A DNA stretch of 10,771 nt from Candidatus Segetimicrobium genomatis (GTDB taxonomy: Bacteria; Sysuimicrobiota; Sysuimicrobiia; Sysuimicrobiales; Segetimicrobiaceae), in contig VBAN01000164.1 in NCBI GenBank assembly GCA_005882445.1, forward strand, positions 1-10,771. The letters are read 5' to 3'. Under the pieces are notes generated by a model. The model was not told where the DNA came from, did not search any database, and saw only the letters and a program-made list of their open reading frames with translations. This document shows, piece after piece, positions 1-10,459 of the stretch (its first letter is position 1; the number at the start of each line of letters is the position of its first letter). The translations under genes were made by a program, and so were the position numbers.

Positions 1-59
1 ACGTCTTTCGCCGCGACGACCCCCGGTTCGCCCGCGCCCTCGAGCCCATCAAGCTTTGA
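1..59 (+). CDS. 3' end of an unidentified protein (partial)
   Basis: An open frame enters from the left edge and stops at TGA 57-59. It encodes a charged tail reading VFRRDDPRFARALEPIKL. Eighteen residues are too few to identify a family. It lies 18 bases upstream of the RidA-family gene on the same strand, so the two may be cotranscribed. The frame is chosen because it is open to the edge and its stop sits just before the next start. Some other explanation, such as chance openness in GC-rich DNA, cannot be excluded. Confidence 0.45.
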   Translation, partial: VFRRDDPRFARALEPIKL

Positions 60-77
60 GCGTGGATCGCCGGTAAC

Positions 78-432
78 ATGGAGCGGCGGCGGTATGCCAC
101 CGGCACACCGTGGGAGCCCATCGTCGGGTACTCGCGGGCCGTTCGGGTCGGACCCTTTGTGCACGTCTCGGGCACCACGGCCACCGATGCCTCCGGCAAG
201 ATCGTGGGCGCCGGGGACCCGCACGCCCAGACCGTGCAAATCCTCCGGAACATCGATGCGGCGCTCCCGGATCTACGTCACCGACATCGGCAGCTGGGAG
301 CAAGTCGGCCGCGCGCACGGTGAAGTGTTCCGGGACGTCCGGCCGGCGACCAGCATGGTGGAAGTGAGCCGGCTGATCGCTCCGGAGATCCTCGTGGAGA
401 TCGAGGCCGACGCCATGCTCGCTGAGGAGTAG
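78..432 (+). pseudogene. RidA/YjgF/UK114-family protein, frameshifted with internal loss
   Basis: Rid proteins are small trimeric deaminases or metabolite-damage scavengers; archetypal RidA hydrolyses reactive enamine/imine intermediates. The first frame, from ATG 78, gives the family N-terminus ([20 protein letters not shown], then [13 protein letters not shown] and [13 protein letters not shown]). At about base 267 homology jumps to the +1 frame, which carries [20 protein letters not shown] and the C-terminal VEVSRL...VEIEADAML block. Family members normally have about 13 residues (a GASLxDVVRT-like helix) between NIDAAL and RIYVTD. Here they are absent, so both length and frame are wrong. 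Dropping one C of the CCC at 266-268 would restore the frame but not the missing helix. The C-terminal motif reads PATS where archetypal RidA has PARS, so the carboxylate-binding arginine is absent, as in the non-canonical Rid4-7-type subfamilies. There is no strong ribosome site. It converges with the MFS gene, 8 bases apart. Confidence 0.8.
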
Positions 433-440
433 GCTCGCGC

Positions 441-1709
441 TCAGGCCTCTGCCGAGAACACACGTCCCCTGGGCTCCGGTCCCGCGGCGACCACGATGGC
501 GAGCGCGACCAGCGCCATCGCGATGGTGATCCCGATCGACTGCCCGAGGGACATGCCGCCCCGGTGGAACAGCGCCTGGAGTGTCGGCGTGAACGACCCG
601 ATCGCCGCGCCGACGTGGTAGGCGGCGCCCGGGCCGGCGCCGCGCGCCGCCGTGGGGAAGCGTTCGGCGAGGTAGGCCGGAGCCACCCCCCACAGGCCCA
701 CCCCGATGGCGCCTTCGAGAATGCCGCCGATCAACACCTGCGTGTGATTGAGGGTCAGCGCGTACCATGGGATGAACGCGAGGCCCACGATGGCGAAGAG
801 GACGAGGGTGGTTCTGCGCCCGAGACGCTCCGAGATCGGTCCGGCGGTCCAGTACCCGGCGAGGCTGCCCAGGTTCAGCAAGACCAGGAACAGGGTCTTC
901 TGTCCCACGGTGAGATGCAGTTCGGTGCTCAGAAAGGTCGGCCAGAATGAGGCGATCGCATAGTACGAGAACATCATGGCGCCCATGACGAGAAAGGCGT
1001 GGAGAGTCGTGCCGATCAGGTCCGGACGAAACAGGCGCAGCAGCGATACTTGATCCGAGCGGCCCTCCCGGCGCAGCTTCTCGCGCCGCGCGAGCCACAC
1101 CGGTGACTCCGGCACGCGGCGGCGGATATAGAGGACCAGCAGCGCCGGCAGCGCGCCGACCCAGAAGAGCGCCCGCCAGCCCCACATCGGGAACACCACA
1201 AAGTACACGATCGTGGCCAGCAGGTAGCCGACCGGCCAGCCCCCCTGAAGGAATCCCGAGGCGATCCCGCGGGATCGCTGGGGCCAGCTCTCCATCGCGA
1301 GCGGGGTCCCGGCCGCCCACTCGCCGCCCATGCCCACCCCAAACAGCAGCCGGAGGATCAGGAACGTCGAGTAGTTCGGCGCGAACCCGGAGAGGAGCTC
1401 GAAGAACGAGAACGCGATAATGGACACCATCAGGGGGAGCCGGCGCCCGACTCGATCGGCCCACGTCCCCACCAGCACCCCGCCGATCAGGCGGCAGAAG
1501 AGCGTGCCGGTGATCACCGCCCCCATCGCGACGAGGCTGACGCCAAATGTCCCGGCAATGTTGCCGAGCACCAACAGGAGAATGGTGAAGTCGAACGCGT
1601 CGAGCACCCAGCCCGCCCAGGCGGCGAGCAGCGTCCGCCGCTGCTCAGGTGTGACTTCGGCCCACCATGAGGCCTGCGCGCGGGTCCCCATGGCCATGGT
1701 CAGGTCCAT
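441..1709 (-). CDS. MFS transporter, sialate:H+ symporter (SHS/NanT/Jen1)-like
   Basis: A 422-residue secondary carrier of the inner membrane with about 12 hydrophobic segments, the usual length for the superfamily. The motif-A loop GTWADRVGRR is at residues 81-90 and is echoed by GPISERLGRR at 290-299 in the second half. TM1 holds acidic residues (WVLDAFDF, D37 and D40) and TM4 reads GVGMGGEW followed by LAMESWPQRSRG, both typical of SHS carriers of sialate, lactate or other monocarboxylates. PESPVW is at 200-205. Substrate is not predictable beyond an organic acid or aromatic acid. The ATG at 1709 is preceded by AAGGGGGG (plus-strand 1717-1724) seven bases upstream, which supports this start. 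It sits 39 bases downstream of the PEBP gene on the same strand, so cotranscription is likely. Unlike several neighbours, no internal loss is apparent. Confidence 0.88.
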   Translation of the reverse strand: MDLTMAMGTRAQASWWAEVTPEQRRTLLAAWAGWVLDAFDFTILLLVLGNIAGTFGVSLVAMGAVITGTLFCRLIGGVLVGTWADRVGRRLPLMVSIIAFSFFELLSGFAPNYSTFLILRLLFGVGMGGEWAAGTPLAMESWPQRSRGIASGFLQGGWPVGYLLATIVYFVVFPMWGWRALFWVGALPALLVLYIRRRVPESPVWLARREKLRREGRSDQVSLLRLFRPDLIGTTLHAFLVMGAMMFSYYAIASFWPTFLSTELHLTVGQKTLFLVLLNLGSLAGYWTAGPISERLGRRTTLVLFAIVGLAFIPWYALTLNHTQVLIGGILEGAIGVGLWGVAPAYLAERFPTAARGAGPGAAYHVGAAIGSFTPTLQALFHRGGMSLGQSIGITIAMALVALAIVVAAGPEPRGRVFSAEA

Positions 1710-1748
1710 ACCGGTTCCCCCCTTCGCACCGAAGAGCTACAGGCAGCG

Positions 1749-2519
1749 CTACTTCATGCCGATCCTCTTGGCGATGTCGGGATTGAGCGCGTAGAGGCCG
1801 ACCGCCTCGCCCACGGCCAGGATGTGATTCTCCATCGCCCTGAGCGCTTCGGTTCCGTTGACTTTCCCGTGCACGGCGAGCATCGAGACGTTGAGCGCGT
1901 ACACCATGAAGTGGTAGTGGTGCGGGATCTCATCGTTCCAGGGCGGGCAGGGCCCATCGTACCCGCCGTAGTCGCCCTTCATCGCCGGGTTGCTGGCGAA
2001 GAAGAAGCCGTAATCGTTGACCCCGCGGTTGCCGTACTTGGTCATGCCCGGCTTCTTTCCATGGGGGGTGACGCCGCTCGAGTCCGCGCCGGCGGGGATG
2101 CTGGTGGTCGCCGCCGGGATATCGACCAGGATCCAGTGGTAGAAGTTGATGCGCCGCAGGCTGGCGGGGATGGCCTGGCCTTCCTTGTTGACCGCGTCAA
2201 AGGCCGACGGCACATCGGGGTCGACCACGATGATGGCGTAGGACTCCGTGCCCGCGGGCCCCTTGGACCAGGAGATCTCCGGGTTCTTGTTGGGGCCCAG
2301 GGTCACGTGGCCCTGCGCGGCCGGGACGCAGAAGGCGAACTGGCCGGGAATGGGCCCATTCGGCTTGACGCCGGAGACGGTGACGTCGATCGCGGGAGCC
2401 CCCGCCGCCCGACCGACGAGGTCGCCTCCCGCCGGCCCGGCCGGGCCGCCGAACGCCAGGAGCCCGCCGCACACCAGAAGGATCGTCGTTCCCCACATGG
2501 TCTTCCGGTCTCGAGCCAT
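1749..2519 (-). CDS. Exported PEBP (YbhB/YbcL Raf-kinase-inhibitor-like) family protein
   Basis: A 256-residue member of the phosphatidylethanolamine-binding protein fold. Bacterial members are poorly characterised and are thought to bind small anionic or lipid ligands. The ligand-pocket elements are in order: DPDVP at 100-104, HWILVDIP at 128-135, GGYDGPCPP at 185-193 and HYHFMVYALN at 201-210. The N-terminus (MARDRKTMWG, then a hydrophobic run to about residue 24, then a Gly/Ala/Pro-rich stretch) looks like a secretion signal, so an extracytoplasmic location is inferred. Plain YbhB proteins are about 160-180 residues; the extra length here is the leader and a longer loop before HW. ATG 2519 has an excellent AAGGAGG site seven bases upstream, which fixes the start. 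It lies between uppP and the MFS gene. The C-terminal helix (residues 223-256) appears intact. Confidence 0.9.
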   Translation of the reverse strand: MARDRKTMWGTTILLVCGGLLAFGGPAGPAGGDLVGRAAGAPAIDVTVSGVKPNGPIPGQFAFCVPAAQGHVTLGPNKNPEISWSKGPAGTESYAIIVVDPDVPSAFDAVNKEGQAIPASLRRINFYHWILVDIPAATTSIPAGADSSGVTPHGKKPGMTKYGNRGVNDYGFFFASNPAMKGDYGGYDGPCPPWNDEIPHHYHFMVYALNVSMLAVHGKVNGTEALRAMENHILAVGEAVGLYALNPDIAKRIGMK

Positions 2520-2587
2520 CTTCCTTCCTCCTTCTCTTCTCGATTACGACGACGCGGTCCGGCCGGTCGCCGCCGCGATGCGCCGGC

Positions 2588-3376
2588 TCAGCGGAACACC
2601 CCTCGGGCCGCGCCCCAGAGGAGCACGATTCCCAGCACGATCCGGTACCAGACGAAGACCCAACTCGTGTGCTCCTTCAGGTAGCGCACCAATCCCCACA
2701 GCGCGAGATAGGACGCCGCGCTGCCCGAGGCCAATCCCAGCGCCAGCAGCGCCCAGCCGTGGGCGTGCAGCCCGGCCTTGCGGAGGCTCAAGAGCTCCAC
2801 GAGTCCCGCCAGCGCGATCGCCGGCAGGCCGAGGAGGAACGAGAACCAGGCCGCGGTGGCGCGCTCCATCCCCAGGGCCAGCGCGGCCGTCAGCGTGGAG
2901 CCGGACCGGGATACCCCCGGCACCAGGGCGAACGCCTGGGCGATCCCGACGGCGATGCCGTCCCCGAAGGTCAGATCGGCCTCGCGGCGCCTGGTCCGGC
3001 CCGAGTGGCTCTGCCCGTAGCGTTCGGCGAGCGCCAGCAGGGCGCCCATGACGACGCACGCCCACCCGATCACCGCGATGTTCCGGAGGGGCGACCCGCA
3101 CCCCTCCAGCGTCCTCTTCAGCGCGAGCCCGGCAATCGCGATCGGCAGCGTGCCGAGCACGATCCCGGCCGTGACCCGGAACGAATGATCCTGCCAGTCT
3201 CCCCGCCGGGCCGCGTCCGCCGCGCGCCCGGCGATGCGGAGGGCATCCCCGCCCAGGAAGCTGATGACGGCGAGGAGGCTCGCCAGCTGCATGGCGGCGG
3301 AGAAGGCCGACCCTGGATCGGGCCAGCCCAAGAGGCTCGGGATGACGCGGAGGTGCGCCGAATTACCATGCGCCAT
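2588..3376 (-). CDS. uppP: Undecaprenyl-pyrophosphate phosphatase (UppP/BacA), N-terminus truncated
   Basis: UppP dephosphorylates undecaprenyl pyrophosphate in the inner membrane to recycle the lipid carrier for peptidoglycan and other polymers. From the ATG at 3376 the protein is 262 residues and mostly hydrophobic. It has SAHLRVIPSLLGWPDPG at 6-22, the signature PGVSRSGST at 153-161, and a typical C-terminal YRIVLGI. Family members begin with a hydrophobic segment ending in a QGLTEFLPxSSxAHL-like motif whose two glutamates (E17 and E21 in E. coli BacA) are catalytic. Here the sequence before SAHL is MAHGN and no glutamates are present. Codons further upstream in this frame give non-hydrophobic residues, and no ribosome site precedes ATG 3376. 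So the 5' end is missing or replaced and the enzyme as written is probably inactive. Identity is sure; the start is not. It lies downstream of the CoxL-like gene and 68 bases upstream of the PEBP gene. Confidence 0.85.
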   Translation of the reverse strand: MAHGNSAHLRVIPSLLGWPDPGSAFSAAMQLASLLAVISFLGGDALRIAGRAADAARRGDWQDHSFRVTAGIVLGTLPIAIAGLALKRTLEGCGSPLRNIAVIGWACVVMGALLALAERYGQSHSGRTRRREADLTFGDGIAVGIAQAFALVPGVSRSGSTLTAALALGMERATAAWFSFLLGLPAIALAGLVELLSLRKAGLHAHGWALLALGLASGSAASYLALWGLVRYLKEHTSWVFVWYRIVLGIVLLWGAARGVFR

Positions 3377-3379
3377 GGT
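3365..3379. repeat. Perfect 6-base inverted repeat at the uppP truncation point
   Basis: ACCATG (3365-3370) and CATGGT (3374-3379) are perfect inverted copies separated by CGC. The repeat lies where recognisable UppP sequence begins and overlaps the first candidate ATG of that gene. Six-base inverted repeats do occur by chance in 10 kb, so its significance rests only on the position. Confidence 0.5.
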
Positions 3380-3434
3380 CCGAGCTGCGTGAAACCGATG
3401 TCGACCTGACCGACTTCCGCGCAGGGGGCGGGCG

Positions 3435-5645
3435 TCATCGCGTCCCTCCGCGCAGCGCCTGCCATATCCGGTCGGGCAAGAGCGGAAGGTCGAGCCTGCC
3501 GGCCAGCCGCGGCCGCAGGGCATCCTCCACCGCATTGACGAGGGCCGGTGGGGCGCCGATCGTTCCGGACTCGCCGATCCCTTTGGCGCCCAGGGGATTG
3601 AGCGGCGACGGCGACACCAGGGAATCCCTGGAGAACTCAGGGAAGTCGGCCGCCGTCGGCACGGCGTAGTCGAGCAGCGATCCGGTGAGGAGTTGGCCGT
3701 CTTTGGCGTAGACCACGCGCTCGAAGAGCGCCTGCGCCAGCCCCTGCGCCAGGCTGCCGTGGATCTGTCCCTCGACGAGCATGGGATTGACCACGCGCCC
3801 GCAGTCGTCTACCGCGGCGTAGCGCAGCACGTCCACCTCCCCGGTTTCCTCATCGACCTCGACCACGGCGACATGCGCGCCGGACGGGACCATCATGCGT
3901 TCCATGGTGAAGTCAAGCGCGGCGTCCATTCCGGCCGGCGCCGCGTTGGCCACCTCCGCGAGCGACACCGCGCGCGCGGCCTCGAGGAGCCGCGCGGCGA
4001 CGCCAATGATCCCGGTCCGCAGCTGCGCGGCCGCGAGGTGCACCGCGGAGCCGCCGATGGAGAGCGAGCGGCTGCCGTAGGTGCCCAGCCCGGTCGGCAC
4101 CGCGTCCGTGTCCCCGTGCACGACCGCGACGTCTTCGGGCGCGACCCCGAGGGCGTCGGCGGCGATCTGGCTGAACGCCGTGGCGAGTCCCTGTCCGTGA
4201 GGCGACGAGCCCGTCAGCACGGTAATCTGTCCCGAGGGTTCCAGGCGCACCGCGCCGCTCTCCCACAACTCGCCGCCGCCCGCGATCTCGACCCACGTGC
4301 TGATCCGGATCCCGACGGGATGCCCGCCCTGGCGGCGCCGCCGCGCCTGTTCCTCGCGCCAGTGCCGGTAATCGGCCAGCGCCAGCGCGCGGTCGAGCAG
4401 GGCCGGATAGTTCCCGGAGTCATAGGTCAGTCCGGTCGGGCTCGCGTAGGGAAACGCGACGATGAAATTTCGGCGCCGCACCTCCACGGGGTCGAGTCCC
4501 AGCCGCGCGGCCACGAGATCCACGATCCGCTCGATGTAGTAGGCGGCCTCGGGCCGCCCCGCCCCCCGGTACGGCCCCGTCGGGGCCGTGGTCGTCGCCA
4601 CCCCGCGCACCCGATAGCGAACGTGCTCGATCCGGTAGGCGCCGAGCCCGACGATCGGCGTGAGGGTCGGAACCCCCGCGGTGAAGGACAGGCAGTAGGC
4701 GCCCAGGTCGGCGAGGACGTCGGTCTCCACGGCGAGGATCCTTCCGTTCTGCGCCGCCGCGGCGCGGACGCGCGCCCGCTGGCCGCGGCCGTGCGTCATG
4801 ACGCGGAGGTTCTCGATCCGGTCCTCCACCCACTTGATGGGCCGGCGGAGGCGAAGGACCAGATAGGCGGCAAGCACTTCCTCGGGGTAGAGGCTTCCTT
4901 TCGCGCCGAATCCGCCCCCCACATCGGGCGCGACGACGCGGACGCGGTCCCGCGGGATCTCGAGGATCTCCGCGATGAGGTCGCGCGCGCCGTGGGGCGT
5001 TTGGGTGGAGAGCCAGACTTCGATCCGGTCGGCGCGCGGGTCGTAGGCCGCCACGATGCCCCGGCACTCCAGGGGAACCGCGGCCAGCCGGGGTTGCTCG
5101 AGTACGGCCTCGACGACGACCGCAGCGCTGCGGAACGCCGCGTCGGGATCGCCGCCCGAGACGGTGCGCTCGAACACAAGGTTCGACGTCCGGCCGGCGT
5201 GCAGGACCGGCGCCTCCGGCGCGAGCGCTCCCTCGGGATCGACGACCGCCGGGAGCACGTCGTAGGCGACCCGCACGCGGTCCGCGGCGTCCTCGGCGGT
5301 GTACCGGTCGGAGGCCAGGATGGCCGCGATGGGTTCGCCGACGTACCGGACGATCCCGTCGGCGAGCAGCGGGTGCGCGACGGTGTCCAGTCCTGGGACG
5401 ATCGGGACCGGTGGGATGCGAGGTCCCGGCGCGGGCAGGTCGGCGGCGGTGAAGACCGCGGCCACGCCGGGGAGCGCGGTCGCCTCCTTGGTGTCGATCC
5501 GGCCGAGGCGGGCGTGCGCGTGGGTGGAGCGCACCACCGCCAGGTGGAGCATCCGCGGCAGCCCGATGTCGTCGACGAACCGGCCGGCGCCGGTCAGCAG
5601 AGCGCGGTCTTCGCGTCTGCGCACAGGGGAACCTACATACGGCAT
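3435..5645 (-). CDS. Xanthine dehydrogenase-family molybdopterin-binding subunit (form II CoxL-like)
   Basis: The large catalytic subunit of a molybdenum hydroxylase, usually in a heterotrimer with FAD and 2Fe-2S subunits. It is 736 residues from ATG 5645. It opens with the family N-terminus MPYVGSPVRRREDRALLTG, then GEPIAA at 103-108, DVGGGFGAKG at 241-250, PYRGAGRPEA at 358-367, HGQG at 483-486 and GAKGIGESGTIG at 687-698, with E692 the expected catalytic glutamate. The active-site loop is PYRGAGR, the form II type. Form I CO dehydrogenase has AYxCSFR, so CO oxidation is unlikely and the substrate is unknown. GGGAGG nine bases upstream supports ATG 5645; the frame stays open to an alternative GTG at 5690. 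The loop around residues 553-572 (LLEA to PAGM) seems about 20 residues shorter than usual. No FAD or Fe-S subunit gene lies in the window. The TGA overlaps an ATG (ATGA, 3435-3438) that begins an out-of-frame reading. Confidence 0.92.
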   Translation of the reverse strand: MPYVGSPVRRREDRALLTGAGRFVDDIGLPRMLHLAVVRSTHAHARLGRIDTKEATALPGVAAVFTAADLPAPGPRIPPVPIVPGLDTVAHPLLADGIVRYVGEPIAAILASDRYTAEDAADRVRVAYDVLPAVVDPEGALAPEAPVLHAGRTSNLVFERTVSGGDPDAAFRSAAVVVEAVLEQPRLAAVPLECRGIVAAYDPRADRIEVWLSTQTPHGARDLIAEILEIPRDRVRVVAPDVGGGFGAKGSLYPEEVLAAYLVLRLRRPIKWVEDRIENLRVMTHGRGQRARVRAAAAQNGRILAVETDVLADLGAYCLSFTAGVPTLTPIVGLGAYRIEHVRYRVRGVATTTAPTGPYRGAGRPEAAYYIERIVDLVAARLGLDPVEVRRRNFIVAFPYASPTGLTYDSGNYPALLDRALALADYRHWREEQARRRRQGGHPVGIRISTWVEIAGGGELWESGAVRLEPSGQITVLTGSSPHGQGLATAFSQIAADALGVAPEDVAVVHGDTDAVPTGLGTYGSRSLSIGGSAVHLAAAQLRTGIIGVAARLLEAARAVSLAEVANAAPAGMDAALDFTMERMMVPSGAHVAVVEVDEETGEVDVLRYAAVDDCGRVVNPMLVEGQIHGSLAQGLAQALFERVVYAKDGQLLTGSLLDYAVPTAADFPEFSRDSLVSPSPLNPLGAKGIGESGTIGAPPALVNAVEDALRPRLAGRLDLPLLPDRIWQALRGGTR

Positions 5646-5731
5646 CGCGTCATGCCTCCCGCGGGCAGTGCGCGTGGAAGCGGCTGCCACGAAATGTTCG
5701 CTCCCGAGGCCGTCGAAGCCCTGCAGGTCCT

Positions 5732-6256
5732 CTAGGGAGCCTGCTGCATCGCTGCGATCTGCGCAGCCGCTGCGTCCGTCGCGCGATCGAGGTCCTCGCG
5801 TTCCGGGCTGGGCGGAGCGAGGGGGATCCCGATTCGCACGGTGACGGGCCGCGGCCGCGGCATGATCCGGCCGAGGGGGAGGGCGTCCGCGGTCCCGATG
5901 ATCGCGACCGGGATCAGGGGCGCGCGCGCGCGGGCGGCCATGAGCGCCGCGCCCCGATGGAACGGGCGGAGCCGGCCATCAGGGCTGATGCCTCCCTCGG
6001 GAAAGACGATGAGCAGCGCTCCGTCCCTCAGCGCCTGCAGGCTGCGCTTGAGCGCCGTCTCGTCGACGGCGCCGCGGTTGAGGGGAATCGCCAGCGGGCC
6101 GTAGGCCCGCATCACCAGGCGGACCCCCCGCATCCGCCACAGCTCTTCCATCGCAAGAAACGCCGGCTTCCGCGGCAGCGCAAGCGGGAGGATGATGGGG
6201 TCTTCCCCGATCACCGTCAAGCGGAACACCGCCCGGGCGAACGCCCGGACGGCCAC
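5732..6256 (-). CDS. PlsC-like 1-acyl-sn-glycerol-3-phosphate acyltransferase lacking the catalytic His block
   Basis: Lysophosphatidate acyltransferases add the second acyl chain in phospholipid synthesis at the inner membrane. Block III is clear (FPEGGISPDGRL, 85-96), as are a block II-like LNRG (59-62) and block IV-like LIPVAI (114-119). The defining block I, NHxxxxD with its catalytic histidine, is absent. The protein reads FRLTVIGE directly into DPIILPLALP, where relatives have about 20 residues ending in NHxSxxD before the same DPIIL. The reading frame is kept, so this looks like an in-frame loss of about 60 bases. The listed start is GTG 6256, with no clear ribosome site. Upstream codons to about 6298 (LRILLDGILYRVLY) also resemble the family N-terminus, so the true start may lie upstream, perhaps a CTG at 6286 preceded by GAGGA. 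It sits 67 bases after the MOSC gene. Confidence 0.82.
   Translation of the reverse strand: MAVRAFARAVFRLTVIGEDPIILPLALPRKPAFLAMEELWRMRGVRLVMRAYGPLAIPLNRGAVDETALKRSLQALRDGALLIVFPEGGISPDGRLRPFHRGAALMAARARAPLIPVAIIGTADALPLGRIMPRPRPVTVRIGIPLAPPSPEREDLDRATDAAAAQIAAMQQAP
6193..6212. repeat. Hairpin at the PlsC missing-block junction
   Basis: TGATGGGG, then TCTT, then CCCCGATCA can pair as an eight-base stem with a single-base bulge and a four-base loop. It lies within the codons for VIGEDPII, exactly where the NHxxxxD segment of the acyltransferase should be. Either it marks a deletion joint, or the pairing is chance in GC-rich sequence. Confidence 0.4.
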
Positions 6257-6323
6257 ATAGAGAACGCGGTAGAGAATGCCGTCCAGGAGAATCCTCAGGC
6301 GTGGGGTGCGACCGGGCGGGACG

Positions 6324-6785
6324 TTACGATCCCTGCACCGGGTCTCCGGGCCGGATCACCCCACCGGTCAGGATCTGCGCGCGCAGGCCCCCCCTGTGGA
6401 CCAACCCGGCTTTCACGCCTTCGCGGGTGAGCCCTTCGAGGTGGCCGCAGGGCTCGCACAGGCGGATCCCCTTCAGGCCGACCGAGCCCACAGTGAACTC
6501 CCGGCCGATCAGCTGGTTGAGCGGCACCCCCCGGGTGGCGATGTTGCGGCGGCTGTCCCCGGCATCCAGCGCCACGCGATAGTCGCGATTCAACGCTTCG
6601 ATCGCCTCGATCTCGATCAAGGTGACCTCGCGGTCGGGGGCGGGCTTCGAAAAGGTGCCGCGTTGAAGGAAGTAGCGGTCTCCTTCCAAGCCCTTCCCCG
6701 GCACGGCGCGCACCTCCTTGACCGGGACCATCTTCGCGGTCGCGTCAGGCGCGATATGGATGGCAACGACGGTTCCTTTGAACAC
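6324..6785 (-). CDS. MOSC domain-containing protein
   Basis: A stand-alone MOSC (MOCO sulfurase C-terminal) domain, 153 residues from GTG 6785, matching the usual size of single-domain members. MOSC domains are found in molybdenum-cofactor sulfurases, mARC-type reductases and YiiM-like proteins, and are thought to handle sulfur or bind molybdenum cofactor through a conserved cysteine. Visible elements are GTVVAIHIAP (4-13), GLEGDRYF (32-39), TLIEIEAIEAL (55-65), RRNIATRGVPLNQLIGREF (79-97) and LCEPCGHLEG (109-118), with C110 and C113 the candidate functional cysteines. GTG 6785 is chosen because AGGGAG lies nine bases upstream and the domain begins right after it; the frame is open further upstream but that sequence overlaps the divergent gene and is not MOSC-like. 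It heads the minus-strand run that includes the CoxL-like subunit, a possible molybdenum link. Exact substrate is unknown. Confidence 0.88.
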   Translation of the reverse strand: MFKGTVVAIHIAPDATAKMVPVKEVRAVPGKGLEGDRYFLQRGTFSKPAPDREVTLIEIEAIEALNRDYRVALDAGDSRRNIATRGVPLNQLIGREFTVGSVGLKGIRLCEPCGHLEGLTREGVKAGLVHRGGLRAQILTGGVIRPGDPVQGS

Positions 6786-6939
6786 CGGCTCAGGCTCCCT
6801 TCGCCGTCCACCCTCTGGGGTGCCCGGCAGCGCGTCTCGGTAGCCATATTGTGCAGTGGCGATCCAGATCCTCTGCCCCACGTGGATGCCGGCTCCCCGA
6901 TCCTCGCGGCGTCTGGTGCTCGGGCCGCCGCGGGAGCGG

Positions 6940-6945
6940 TACAAT
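6940..6945 (+). promoter_or_regulatory. Candidate -10 box (TACAAT) for the endonuclease III gene
   Basis: TACAAT matches the sigma-70 -10 consensus at five of six positions and ends nine bases before the ATG at 6955. Initiation at the usual distance would start the transcript within a few bases of that ATG, a leaderless arrangement, which fits the lack of a good ribosome site there. No convincing -35 hexamer stands 16-18 bases upstream. It lies in the 169-base gap between the divergent MOSC and nth genes, the only divergent interval in the window. A separate promoter for the MOSC direction was not identified. Confidence 0.35.
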
Positions 6946-6954
6946 CGAACAGGT

Positions 6955-7682
6955 ATGGGCGCACGAGCGCGCGTCGGAGCGAAGGGCCGGGTCACCGGGT
7001 CTCGACGCTCGTCCACACCGTCCTCTCTCAGCACACCAGCGACACCAACAGTCACCGGGCGTTCGAGCGGCTGCGGGGCCGGTTCCCGTCCTGGGCGATG
7101 CTGCGCGATGCGCCGGTCGAAGCGGTGGTCGACGCGATCCGCCCCGCCGGCCTGAGCAGGCTCAAGGCGCCGCGTATCCAGGCCCTCCTGAGGCGCGTCA
7201 CCGCCGAGCGGGGACGGCTCTCATTGGATTTTCTCCGGCGGTGGCCGGTCGATCGCGCGAAGGCGTGGCTCCGGACCCTCGACGGGGTGGGCCCCAAAAC
7301 GGCGGCGATCGTGCTCATCTTCGGCTTGGGCAAGGCCGCGTTCCCGGTCGACACCCACGTCTACCGCGTCGGGAGGCGCATCGGGATCATCCCCAAGGGA
7401 CTGTCCGTGGAGAAGGCGCACGGGTGGATCGAGGCGCTGGTTCGGCCCGCCCGCTACGGGCCGTTCCACCTGCTCCTGATCCGCCACGGGCGTGAGATCT
7501 GCAAGGCGGGCCGCCCGCGCTGCTCTGTCTGTCCGCTGCGCAGGCACTGTGACTTTTTTCGCCGCGCCGGCGTGGGGGGCGGTGAGCAGCCGCCCGCGCC
7601 GTATTGGGGCGGAGGGAGGGTTTCGGCTTCCAGCGAAGGTCGGCATCTGCACCGCCGGCAGGATGCGGTGAATGGGGTGTGA
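6955..7682 (+). CDS. nth: Endonuclease III-like HhH-GPD DNA glycosylase/AP lyase, N-terminus out of frame
   Basis: Base-excision repair glycosylase of the Nth family. The core reads STLVHTVLSQHTSDTNSHRAF, then the helix-hairpin-helix LDGVGPKTAA with the catalytic lysine codon at 7296, VDTHVYRV with the catalytic aspartate codon at 7350, and a C-x6-C-x2-C-x5-C iron-sulfur motif (cysteine codons at 7500, 7521, 7530 and 7548). The core therefore appears catalytically complete. Its frame has no ATG, GTG or TTG close upstream of STLV. The natural ATG (6955, MGARARV) is in a different frame. The bases between contain CCGGGTC twice (6987-6993 and 6995-7001); removing one eight-base unit would join ATG and core in frame, though the N-terminus would still be about 15-20 residues shorter than usual. 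A roughly 37-residue C-terminal extension after the cluster is not family-like. The stop abuts the next gene's ATG. Confidence 0.8.
6987..7001 (+). repeat. Short direct repeat (CCGGGTC x2) at the nth frame break
   Basis: CCGGGTC occurs at 6987-6993 and again at 6995-7001 with one base between, an eight-base period. It lies between the ATG-containing frame (MGARARVGAKGRV) and the frame encoding the endonuclease III core. An eight-base duplication shifts the frame by exactly the amount needed to explain the mismatch, so slippage or an assembly duplication is plausible. Confidence 0.55.
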
Positions 7683-8639
7683 ATGGATATGAGTTCGCTT
7701 CGCGTCGCCCTGCTCCAAATGACGGCCTGCGGCTCCGACCAGGATGCGAATCTTCGCAAAGGGGAGGCATTCTGCCGGCGCGCGCAGGCGATGGGAGCGG
7801 ACATTGCGCTGTTCCCCGAAATGTGGAACATCGGATACACTCCCTACGCGGGATGTCCTCACGAGTACCGGGCTCTCGGCGCAGAGCGCCCGGACCAGCA
7901 GGAGGCTCGTGCCCGATGGCAGGCGCAGGCGATTGGCCGAGATGATCCCTTTGTGTTGCGGTTTCGCCGGCTGGCCAAGGAGTTGCGGATGGCCGTCGCG
8001 CTGACGTATCTCGAGCGCTGGCCGGCCGCCCCGCGCGATACCGTTTCCCTGATCGACCGCCATGGAGATATTGTCCTGACCTACGCCAAGGTGCACACGT
8101 GCGACTTTTCCCTCGAAGCGGCGTGTACGCCCGGGGAGGACTTCCCCGTGTGCCCGCTGGACGCAGCGCACGGATCTGTGAACATCGGTGCGATGATTTG
8201 CTATGATCGGGAGTTCCCTGAAAGCGCCCGGATCTTGATGCTCAACGGAGCGGAGATCATCCTGACGCCCAATGCCTGCCCGTTGGAGGAGAACCGGATC
8301 GGGCAATTTCGCGCGCGCGCCTTTGAGAACATGGTGGGGGTGGCCATGGCCAATTACGCGGCCCCCCAGGAAAACGGACACTCCGTCGCGTTCGATGGGA
8401 TGGCCTTCAACGCCGACGGAGCGGGGCGAAATACGCTCATGATCGAGGCGGACGGGAGGGAAGGCGTGTATCTGGCGGGGTTCGATCTGGACGCGCTGCG
8501 GGCATATCGGGACCGCGAAGTCTGGGGAGGCGCGTTTCGCCGGCCACACCGGTATGATCCCCTCACCTCGACGGGCCTGGCCCGCCCGTTCGTGAGGACG
8601 AATGCGGCCGGCGAGCGATATGACCCGGCCACGAGATGA
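7683..8639 (+). CDS. Carbon-nitrogen hydrolase (nitrilase superfamily)
   Basis: A 318-residue cytoplasmic hydrolase of amide, carbamoyl or nitrile C-N bonds. The catalytic residues of the superfamily are all present: E46 in ALFPEMWNIGY, K136 in LTYAKVH, and nucleophile C173 in GAMICYDREFPESARI. E145, in FSLEAACTPGEDF, matches the accessory glutamate position. LTPNACPLEENRIGQFRAR and ENMVGVAMANY follow as in N-carbamoyl amidohydrolase-like members. The 50-residue C-terminal part (VYLAGFDLDALRAYR, then WGGAFRRPHRY) is also family-typical. It could be a carbamoylputrescine-amidase-like or N-carbamoyl amino acid amidohydrolase; the sequence does not decide. ATG 7683 directly follows the TGA of nth; a second in-frame ATG two codons later is possible. 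The ribosome site is weak (GGGGTG). It appears intact and may be read through from nth into the YCII gene. Confidence 0.92.
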   Translation: MDMSSLRVALLQMTACGSDQDANLRKGEAFCRRAQAMGADIALFPEMWNIGYTPYAGCPHEYRALGAERPDQQEARARWQAQAIGRDDPFVLRFRRLAKELRMAVALTYLERWPAAPRDTVSLIDRHGDIVLTYAKVHTCDFSLEAACTPGEDFPVCPLDAAHGSVNIGAMICYDREFPESARILMLNGAEIILTPNACPLEENRIGQFRARAFENMVGVAMANYAAPQENGHSVAFDGMAFNADGAGRNTLMIEADGREGVYLAGFDLDALRAYRDREVWGGAFRRPHRYDPLTSTGLARPFVRTNAAGERYDPATR

Positions 8640-8658
8640 AGGGAGGCGGGGCACCGTC

Positions 8659-9027
8659 ATGGCGAAGAGCGACAAGGGAACACCCCCGGGAGGCGCGGGA
8701 AGCGGCGGCGGCATGAAGTGTTACGCGCTGATCTACTACGTGGTCGATGACTTTGTTGCCCGGCGGGCACCGCACCGCGAGGAACACCTCCGGCTCGTCA
8801 GGGAAGCGCATGGCCGCGGGGAGCTGCTCCTGGCCGGGGCATTGGGCGATCCCCCGGATCGGGCGCTGCTCGTGTTTCGCGCCCCGGACGGCTCGATCGC
8901 CGAAACCTTCGCGCAGCGCGATCCTTACGTGGTCAAGGGCGTGGTCACGCGCTGGGAGGTGCAGCCCTGGGCGGTCGTGGTTGGCCAGGAACCGTCCGGG
9001 AAGACCCCGATCGGCGGTGTCCGGTGA
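8659..9027 (+). CDS. YCII-family (YciI-like) protein
   Basis: A small alpha/beta protein of the dimeric ferredoxin-like YCII family. Members are mostly uncharacterised, though a few act as dehalogenase- or muconolactone-isomerase-like enzymes or as partner domains. The domain starts at MKCYALIYYVVDDF, followed by RRAPHREEHLRLV with its paired histidines, then GELLLAGALGDPPD, the VFRAPDG turn, and QRDPYVVKG...WEVQPW at the end, all typical. The start is uncertain. ATG 8659 has GGGAGG twelve bases upstream and adds an 18-residue Gly/Ser/Pro-rich leader; ATG 8713 begins exactly at the domain but has only a weak GC-rich ribosome site. The GTG of the next gene overlaps its TGA (GTGA, 9024-9027), so the two are probably translationally coupled. 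No damage is visible. Confidence 0.82.
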   Translation: MAKSDKGTPPGGAGSGGGMKCYALIYYVVDDFVARRAPHREEHLRLVREAHGRGELLLAGALGDPPDRALLVFRAPDGSIAETFAQRDPYVVKGVVTRWEVQPWAVVVGQEPSGKTPIGGVR

Positions 9028-9338
9028 TTGCGCGGTTTTGGTCGGCGCGCGCCACGCCCGCCGGGGCCCGGGCCTATGCCGGCCATCTGAGGAGCCACGT
9101 CCTGCCGGCGGTCAAACAGGTGGACGGGTACGCGGGCGCCGTGCTGCTCGAGCGGGAAGTCTCCGCCGCGGTCGAGATCCTCGTCATTACCTGGTGGCGG
9201 TCGCTCGATGCGATTCGACGGTTCGCCGGTCCCGACCCGGAGGAAGCCGTGGTCGCCGATGCCGCCGCCGCTCTGCTGACGACCTTTGACCGGCGGGTGC
9301 GCCATTACGAGCTCGTGGTCAAGGACGAGGCCAGGTGA
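9024..9338 (+). CDS. Antibiotic biosynthesis monooxygenase (ABM)-like domain protein
   Basis: A 104-residue small protein of the dimeric alpha/beta-barrel ABM type. It begins MIARFWSARAT, then a helix with AYAGHLRSHVLPAVKQVDGY, GAVLLEREV, an ITWWRSLDAIRRFAGPDPEEA segment, and ends with FDRRVRHYELVV. The W-x-S-x-x-A-I-x-x-F-x-G pattern with a C-terminal HYE is common among proteins annotated as antibiotic biosynthesis monooxygenases. Function in this subgroup is unknown; these folds bind or oxidise small cyclic molecules without cofactor, or act as accessory dimers. It starts with GTG in a four-base overlap with the upstream stop and ends in another GTGA overlap with the aminotransferase, implying coupled translation and a shared role with both. 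Confidence 0.78.
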   Translation: MIARFWSARATPAGARAYAGHLRSHVLPAVKQVDGYAGAVLLEREVSAAVEILVITWWRSLDAIRRFAGPDPEEAVVADAAAALLTTFDRRVRHYELVVKDEAR

Positions 9339-10459
9339 CCCGGGTGAAGATCGAACCCTTTGCGCTCGAGCGCTGGATGACCCGGCACGAGCTCAACGCC
9401 CGCTACGATATCGCGGAAAGCGGCATCCTGCCCCTGCGGCTTGCCGACCTGCTCGGCTGGCTGCCGGTGGACGAGCGCCAGGCCACGCTGGATTCCCTGC
9501 TCGGGATGCCGCTCGGCTACTCGGAAGCCGTTGGCACTCGCGCGCTGCGTTCGTTGATCGCCGCCACCTACACAGACTGCGATCCCGACAATATCCTGGT
9601 CACCACCGGCGCGATCGAGGCGAACTTTCTGCTGTTCAGCGCGCTCCTGGGCGCCGGCGACCACGTGATCGTGTCCCACCCCGCCTACCAGCAGCTCTCC
9701 AGCGTGCCGCGGGCCCTCGGCTGCGAGGTGTCGCTGTGGGATGTGGGCCAAGATTATCGGTTCGATGTGAGCGCGCTGGCGCGGCTGGTCCGGCCGGCCA
9801 CGCGCCTGATCGTCGTCAACACGCCGCACAATCCCACCGGCGCCGTGCTTTCACCGGAGGGGGCGCGAGGCGTGTACGCGCTGGCCGAGTCGGTCGGGGC
9901 CAGGGTGCTGTGCGACGAGGCCTATCGCTGGCTCACCGTCCCCGGCGGCGACCCGTTCGCGCCGCCGATGGTCGACCACGGACCGCGCGGCATCAGCGTC
10001 GGCACGGTGTCCAAGCCGTTCGGGCTTCCGGGCCTGCGCATCGGGTGGATCGCCGCGTCCCGGGACGTGATTTCCGCCTGTCTCGGGATACGCGACTACG
10101 TCTCGCTCAGCCCCGGCAAGCTCAACGATGCCATCGCCCAACTCGCGCTCCGCCACCGCGAGCGGATCATCGAGCGCAACAGCCGCATCATCGCCGCGAA
10201 TCTGGCCGCCACCACGCGATGGATCGCGCGGCACTCCGAGATCCTCTCCTGGGCGCCGCCGCGCGGCGGGCTGCTGGCGCTGGTGCGCTACCGGCTCGAA
10301 CCCGAGATCGGGTCGCTCGAGCTCGCCGACAGGCTGGCCATCGAGTACGACGTCATGCTGGCCCCGGGCTCGGCCTTCGGCTGCGAGCACCACCTGGCCG
10401 GCCTCGAGGCGGCGGGCCGCTGCTTCGAAGCGCTTCGGCGTCGACCGAGGAGCTGCTAA
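9335..10459 (+). CDS. Class I/II PLP-dependent aminotransferase (VioD/capreomycidine synthase-like), C-terminal segment missing
   Basis: A fold-type I aminotransferase of 374 residues. Cofactor residues are clear: TTGAIEANF (90-98), NTPHNPTG with N166 (162-169), CDEAY with D194 and Y197, TVSKPFG with Schiff-base K227, and GLRIGW with R235. The N-terminus (KIEPFALERWMTRHELNARY, then DIAESG) resembles the group annotated near capreomycidine synthase, whose natural substrates are mostly unknown. Near the end, PGSAFGCEHHL runs straight into AGLEAAGRCFEAL. Relatives have about 12 residues here (hlRIGxG...F), including the arginine that holds the substrate carboxylate. An in-frame loss of roughly 36 bases is inferred and would harm activity. 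GTG 9335 overlaps the upstream stop and has GAGG four bases before it; GTG 9344 is an alternative. Its TAA shares four bases with the convergent gene's stop. Confidence 0.88.
   Translation: MTRVKIEPFALERWMTRHELNARYDIAESGILPLRLADLLGWLPVDERQATLDSLLGMPLGYSEAVGTRALRSLIAATYTDCDPDNILVTTGAIEANFLLFSALLGAGDHVIVSHPAYQQLSSVPRALGCEVSLWDVGQDYRFDVSALARLVRPATRLIVVNTPHNPTGAVLSPEGARGVYALAESVGARVLCDEAYRWLTVPGGDPFAPPMVDHGPRGISVGTVSKPFGLPGLRIGWIAASRDVISACLGIRDYVSLSPGKLNDAIAQLALRHRERIIERNSRIIAANLAATTRWIARHSEILSWAPPRGGLLALVRYRLEPEIGSLELADRLAIEYDVMLAPGSAFGCEHHLAGLEAAGRCFEALRRRPRSC

Follow-up and report, generated by a model that had tools for sequence, protein, structure and literature searches.

Chimeras formed during whole-genome amplification (MDA) were characterised in a 2007 study, reportedly by Lasken and Stockwell. 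In the part of that study that deals with junctions, 85% of the MDA chimeras are inversions, and more than 90% of those joining segments less than 10 kb apart share at least 2 bp (PMC1855051). For metagenome-assembled genomes, local assembly errors and scaffolding gaps are described as yielding incorrect protein-coding sequences, and IDBA-UD assemblies are suspected of prominent local errors, according to the relevant sections of Chen et al. (2020, PMC7111523). Here we analyse a stretch of bacterial DNA of 10,771 nucleotides (hereafter the window) in which six genes lack short blocks. These losses are almost certainly no biological deletions but gaps that were closed without a mark by assembly software.

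The window forms contig 130 of a scaffolded draft genome (G000) that comprises 2,498,628 bases in 500 contigs and is estimated to be 64.19% complete and 0.25% contaminated. We sought its relatives in a set of 61 genomes that included G000 itself. The nearest one, G001, is about 93% identical to G000, and its contig 169 is in large part colinear with the window, the aligned pieces being 85-96% identical. Among the best 80 loci listed, none from a named genome exceeds 72% identity to the window.

A reading of the letters alone (the sequence-only reading) had proposed that RidA, UppP, PlsC, endonuclease III and the aminotransferase each lack a conserved block, and perhaps CoxL as well. Alignment to relatives bears this out for the five genes and turns the conjecture on CoxL into a confirmed loss: each of the six is without a block of 36-103 bp that relatives keep, the sequence on either side being clean (Table 1). 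The relatives are not shortened in the same way. When counts are taken over the relatives whose loci matched a given gene, the block is present in 3/3 for RidA (13 residues), 6/6 for UppP (17-18 residues), 8/8 for PlsC (19-20 residues) and 3/3 for the aminotransferase (12 residues), and extra residues occur at the CoxL join in 21 of 22, the 22nd being a partial locus. The proposed block size of 10-25 residues was nearly right, the measured range being 12 to about 34. The same reading held that some losses keep the frame and some do not, and by length three keep it and three break it.

Table 1. Joins, one possible join and two unaffected neighbouring genes, in positions of the window
Feature	Position	Strand	Observation
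Join in RidA (gene about 78-432)	263..268	+	38 bp missing after position 265, frame broken; alignment to G001
Join in UppP (gene about 2588-3455)	3357..3364	-	About 46 bp net missing at 3359-3363, frame broken; against G001
Join in CoxL-type molybdenum hydroxylase large subunit (3435-5690)	3888..3976	-	About 78 bp missing, in frame; against G002
Join in PlsC acyltransferase	6201..6205	-	About 57 bp missing, in frame; against G001
Join near N-terminus of endonuclease III-type glycosylase	6999..7000	+	103 bp missing against G001, frame broken
Join in aminotransferase (9335-10459)	10395..10396	+	36 bp missing against G003, in frame
Possible join between CoxL and PlsC	5725..5732	.	81 bp of G001 missing; G001 sole comparison
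PEBP/YbhB-type gene, unaffected neighbour	1749..2519	-	TIGR00481 above cut-off
Carbon-nitrogen hydrolase, unaffected neighbour	7683..8639	+	Absent from G001 at this place

The halves of RidA on either side of its join match PF01042 in different frames, the CoxL alignment to G002 breaks off at 3900 and restarts at 3976, and the alignments of several relatives to PlsC stop exactly at 6202. A conserved N-terminal motif is gone with the UppP block and a conserved motif with that of PlsC. In the relatives' alignments, nearly invariant stretches occur within the blocks missing from UppP, PlsC and the aminotransferase, and we take these stretches to be functional motifs. The endonuclease III gene gives a clean gap of 34 residues against G002 only, the short upstream piece being poorly aligned in the other five of six relatives, so that this case rests on the nucleotides of G001 and on G002; an ORF taken from 7023 first matches the nth profile at its position 36. 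The PEBP and carbon-nitrogen hydrolase genes had been described as intact, and they are indeed unaffected neighbours, the PEBP/YbhB-type gene showing no gap of at least 15 bp against G001. The candidate site at 5725 is intergenic and lies in a rearranged place (G001 is without CoxL). With six in 10.8 kb, joins are more closely spaced in the window than in the sampled genome, where they average one per 4.5 kb.

The window also differs from G001 at a larger scale, and these differences were not counted as joins. Stretches of 872 bp, 3,468 bp and about 1.4 kb of G001 are missing here, the first two being intergenic, and CoxL, the carbon-nitrogen hydrolase and the aminotransferase are present in the window and absent from that place in G001 (the gene-level difference sites are window 55-61, 433-436, 6882-6999, 3455-5687, 7569-8616 and 9341-10449). 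Gene turnover is the probable source of these differences. CoxL was probably lost by G001, because G002 also has it between UppP and PlsC. Within the MOSC gene (window 6648-6670), a local swap of about 20 bp with clean flanks (22 bp in G001, 19 bp here) could reflect either a small patch of divergence or an error at a contig end. Two repeats were also observed. A dispersed element of about 50 bp (G001:C169:61299-61346, or L046:13299-13346) has partial copies in both genomes, with 6 matches in 285 kb of G000 (contigs C5, C218, C309, C84, C110 and C120) and 6 in 547 kb of G001. Another of about 52 bp (G000:C5:3791-3842) matches four adjacent copies at G001:C126:52722-52926.

Losses of the same kind occur across the sampled genome. 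We took 36 contigs of G000, of which 24 aligned to 546,510 bases of G001 and 12 did not. The comparison covers 158,132 aligned bases, with ORFs predicted mechanically and gaps of at least 400 bp ignored by the chaining step; only colinear joins were sought, so all counted joins are direct by construction. Relative to G001, blocks of 30-130 bp are missing from G000 at 35 N-free places, or about once in 4.5 kb. They measure 33-111 bp (mean 61.5), with 33 of the 35 at or below 91 bp, and 23 of them fall inside predicted ORFs and 12 outside. The reverse comparison gives 13 losses of 30-130 bp on the G001 side, none of them in an ORF. N-free gaps of 131-400 bp were found on neither side of the 158 kb aligned, and losses of 12-29 bp show only a modest excess (15 in G000, 8 in G001). 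Seven of the 24 contigs were added after the loss pattern had been noted, and they give a like picture (10 losses, 6 in ORFs, 3 in frame).

The polarity of these changes can be read from two further relatives. G002 and G003 both span 9 of the 20 ORF losses in the first set and both keep the whole block in 9/9, which places the change on the G000 side; polarity could not be assigned for the remaining 11. As a baseline, the ORFs of G001 show 8 gaps of at least 8 residues against G002 in 15,504 residues, 4 per side, and 13 against G003 in 12,287 residues, of which 10 are missing in G003 and 3 in G001. Because the 13 reverse events lie outside ORFs, some of the 12 non-ORF losses in G000 may be real.

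Within ORFs, the losses are indifferent to the reading frame. Only 8 of 23 are in frame, the one third expected were frame ignored, against 23 of 28 indels of 3-11 bp (Fisher p = 0.0012); a looser count over the first set gives 7/20. An early by-eye excess of lengths that are multiples of three (12/20) was gone once ORF interiors of the extended set were counted. The cut points look random as well: the sequence shared at them averages 0.71 bp, against 0.84 bp (0.51-1.29) under a random-cut null, and neither direct repeats nor microhomology was found there beyond chance. Microhomology-mediated deletion was rejected on this comparison. Relaxed selection was likewise not found in the ORFs with losses, where dN/dS is 0.221 (21 ORFs, one of them with its loss at an N-run), or 0.222 in the 12 with a frame-breaking loss, the value being 0.221 in 62 ORFs without gaps of at least 12 bp. 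In-frame stop codons are about equally rare in the ORFs with a loss (6 in 8,583 codons) and in the intact ones (10 in 16,291).

The genes struck include indispensable ones. The sole copy of the cysteinyl-tRNA synthetase gene (cysS) above the family cut-off in G000 is split at C77:4915/4916, and its pieces cover profile positions 2-147 and 174-300. G001, G002 and G003 have one uninterrupted copy each, and G004, an incomplete draft, has none above the cut-off. A gyrB copy in G000 is also broken, this being the one copy judged in an incomplete draft. A living cell with gyrB and its only cysS both broken is hardly credible. Ten proteins of G001 at loss sites can be named: cysS, a Clp-type ATPase, aroB fused to shikimate kinase, gyrB, ClpB, a PASTA-type kinase, an Lgt-like protein (below cut-off), an RluA-family enzyme, PriA and RsmB. 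Three further ones are a CoaBC-type protein and a dehydrogenase, both below cut-off, and a thiamine-diphosphate enzyme.

Gaps that the assembly did mark allow its gap estimates to be calibrated. The 36 sampled contigs contain 14 N-runs, 10 of which could be paired with G001, and the true gap minus the number of Ns is 76, 86, 76, 93, 78, 35, 15, -6, -238 and -343. Seven of the ten are too short and none is exact; five are short by 76-93 bp, three of these values near 80 (76, 93 and 78) coming from the single contig C267. The true gap is at least 97 bp in 7/10. N-free losses are mostly at or below 91 bp and N-run gaps mostly at or above 97 bp, a pattern that agrees with a scaffolder whose estimates fall about 80 bp short of the true gap. 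Contigs failing to meet by about 30-110 bp would be placed side by side, presumably by means of paired reads, with a gap estimate some 80 bp too small. A positive estimate would lead to Ns being written, but too few, and an estimate of zero or below to contigs butted together with no mark. The outcome would be apparent blunt deletions strewn at random over genes and intergenic DNA. We infer that this scaffolding step made the N-free joins.

The offset of about 80 bp is not universal: at two of the ten N-runs, one of them next to repeats, G001 has less sequence rather than more, and two others differ by only -6 and 15. At two N-runs, G000:C199:516 (234 Ns) and G000:C5:3952 (182 Ns), G001 has no extra sequence; either the Ns are over-estimated there, or G001 differs. 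If coverage gaps fell at random, many of them should be short, so the modest excess at 12-29 bp counts against the model. Because of the discordant N-runs and the few losses under 30 bp, the simple scaffolder model is incomplete. Even so, joins made in a scaffolded assembly are, with high confidence, the best explanation of the losses, and the blocks would then never have been lost from the organism. The evidence for this comprises the spread of the losses across the contigs sampled, their indifference to gene function, frame and base composition, the random cut points, the lack of relaxed selection, the indispensable genes struck, and the N-runs that are too short in 7/10. An artefact had been one of the two classes of explanation offered by the sequence-only reading, and an assembly artefact is now strongly supported.

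What opened the gaps is a separate matter. The same reading had pointed to difficult GC-rich sites, and a drop-out of coverage at GC-rich hairpins, skipped by the assembler, would suit a genome whose sampled contigs mostly have a GC content of 64-72%. However, 26 missing blocks (one at an N-run) are neither more GC-rich than random blocks from the same regions (0.701 vs 0.701, p = 0.91) nor more foldable (p = 0.99), and we rejected this cause as very unlikely. That evidence bears on the cause of the gaps only, not on the artefact reading. We also give little credence to a mixture of strains or chimeric binning, in which the joins would result from a consensus drawn over strains that occur together. 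Mismatch rises a little in the 40 bp next to the joins (0.083-0.124 per 5-bp bin vs 0.072), and G000 and G001 differ in gene content, as such a mixture might suggest. The raised mismatch, also a point against the scaffolder model, could be due to contig-end errors or alignment effects. The contamination estimate is low (0.25%), and a mixture alone gives no reason to expect losses of 30-110 bp that are blunt, blind to frame and end near the size at which N-runs begin.

The other class that had been offered, a truly deletion-prone lineage, is contradicted by the data. Genuine short blunt deletions, arising as a burst while a lineage decays or acts as a mutator, would agree with losses that exist in the contigs themselves and fall on the G000 side, and with a genome of 2.5 Mb, smaller than those of G001-G003 (3.7-4.4 Mb); but this small size accompanies an estimated completeness of 64% in 500 contigs. 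The breakage of a gyrB copy and of the only recognisable cysS, the blindness to frame of the losses while small indels still respect it, the normal purifying selection on ORFs with losses, whose dN/dS is that of intact ones, and the lack of microhomology beyond chance all stand against such a burst and make it most improbable. We regard as barely conceivable that blunt deletions of 30-110 bp swept the whole genome in a burst of such recent date that selection would not yet appear relaxed in the broken genes, gyrB and cysS among them. An amplification artefact, also raised by the sequence-only reading, is exceedingly doubtful: a completeness of 64%, a contamination of 0.25% and 500 contigs would also suit MDA chimeras from a single-cell genome, but the sizes of the losses are narrow, only 7/35 joins share at least 2 bp, unlike the nearby junctions in the published part on chimeras, and 85% of those chimeras are inversions (PMC1855051). 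The joins found here come from a colinear search and are direct by construction.

Under the preferred reading, that of joins made by a scaffolded assembly, the losses in the window are almost certainly not a biological feature: as biology they carry no weight, the genes being almost certainly whole in the organism. A draft whose sampled sequence has unmarked joins at intervals of about 4.5 kb is nevertheless a warning, as false frameshifts and spurious losses of conserved motifs would enter any gene count, pseudogene call, completeness estimate or protein family drawn from it. A test for blindness to frame, combined with the calibration of N-runs, provides a read-free flag for such assemblies.

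Compared with known artefacts, the joins of G000 resemble MDA chimeras in that both arise in the sequencing process and drop the intervening DNA. They differ in geometry: the chimeras, as far as the junction data of the 2007 study go, are mostly inverted and have short complementarity (PMC1855051), whereas the counted joins of G000 are direct and share bases at the level of random cuts. The relevant sections of Chen et al. (2020, PMC7111523) contain no description of butted joins that are free of Ns and have an offset of about 80 bp. In comparison with the errors treated in those sections, the joins of G000 recur about once per 4.5 kb and were detected through relatives, not reads.
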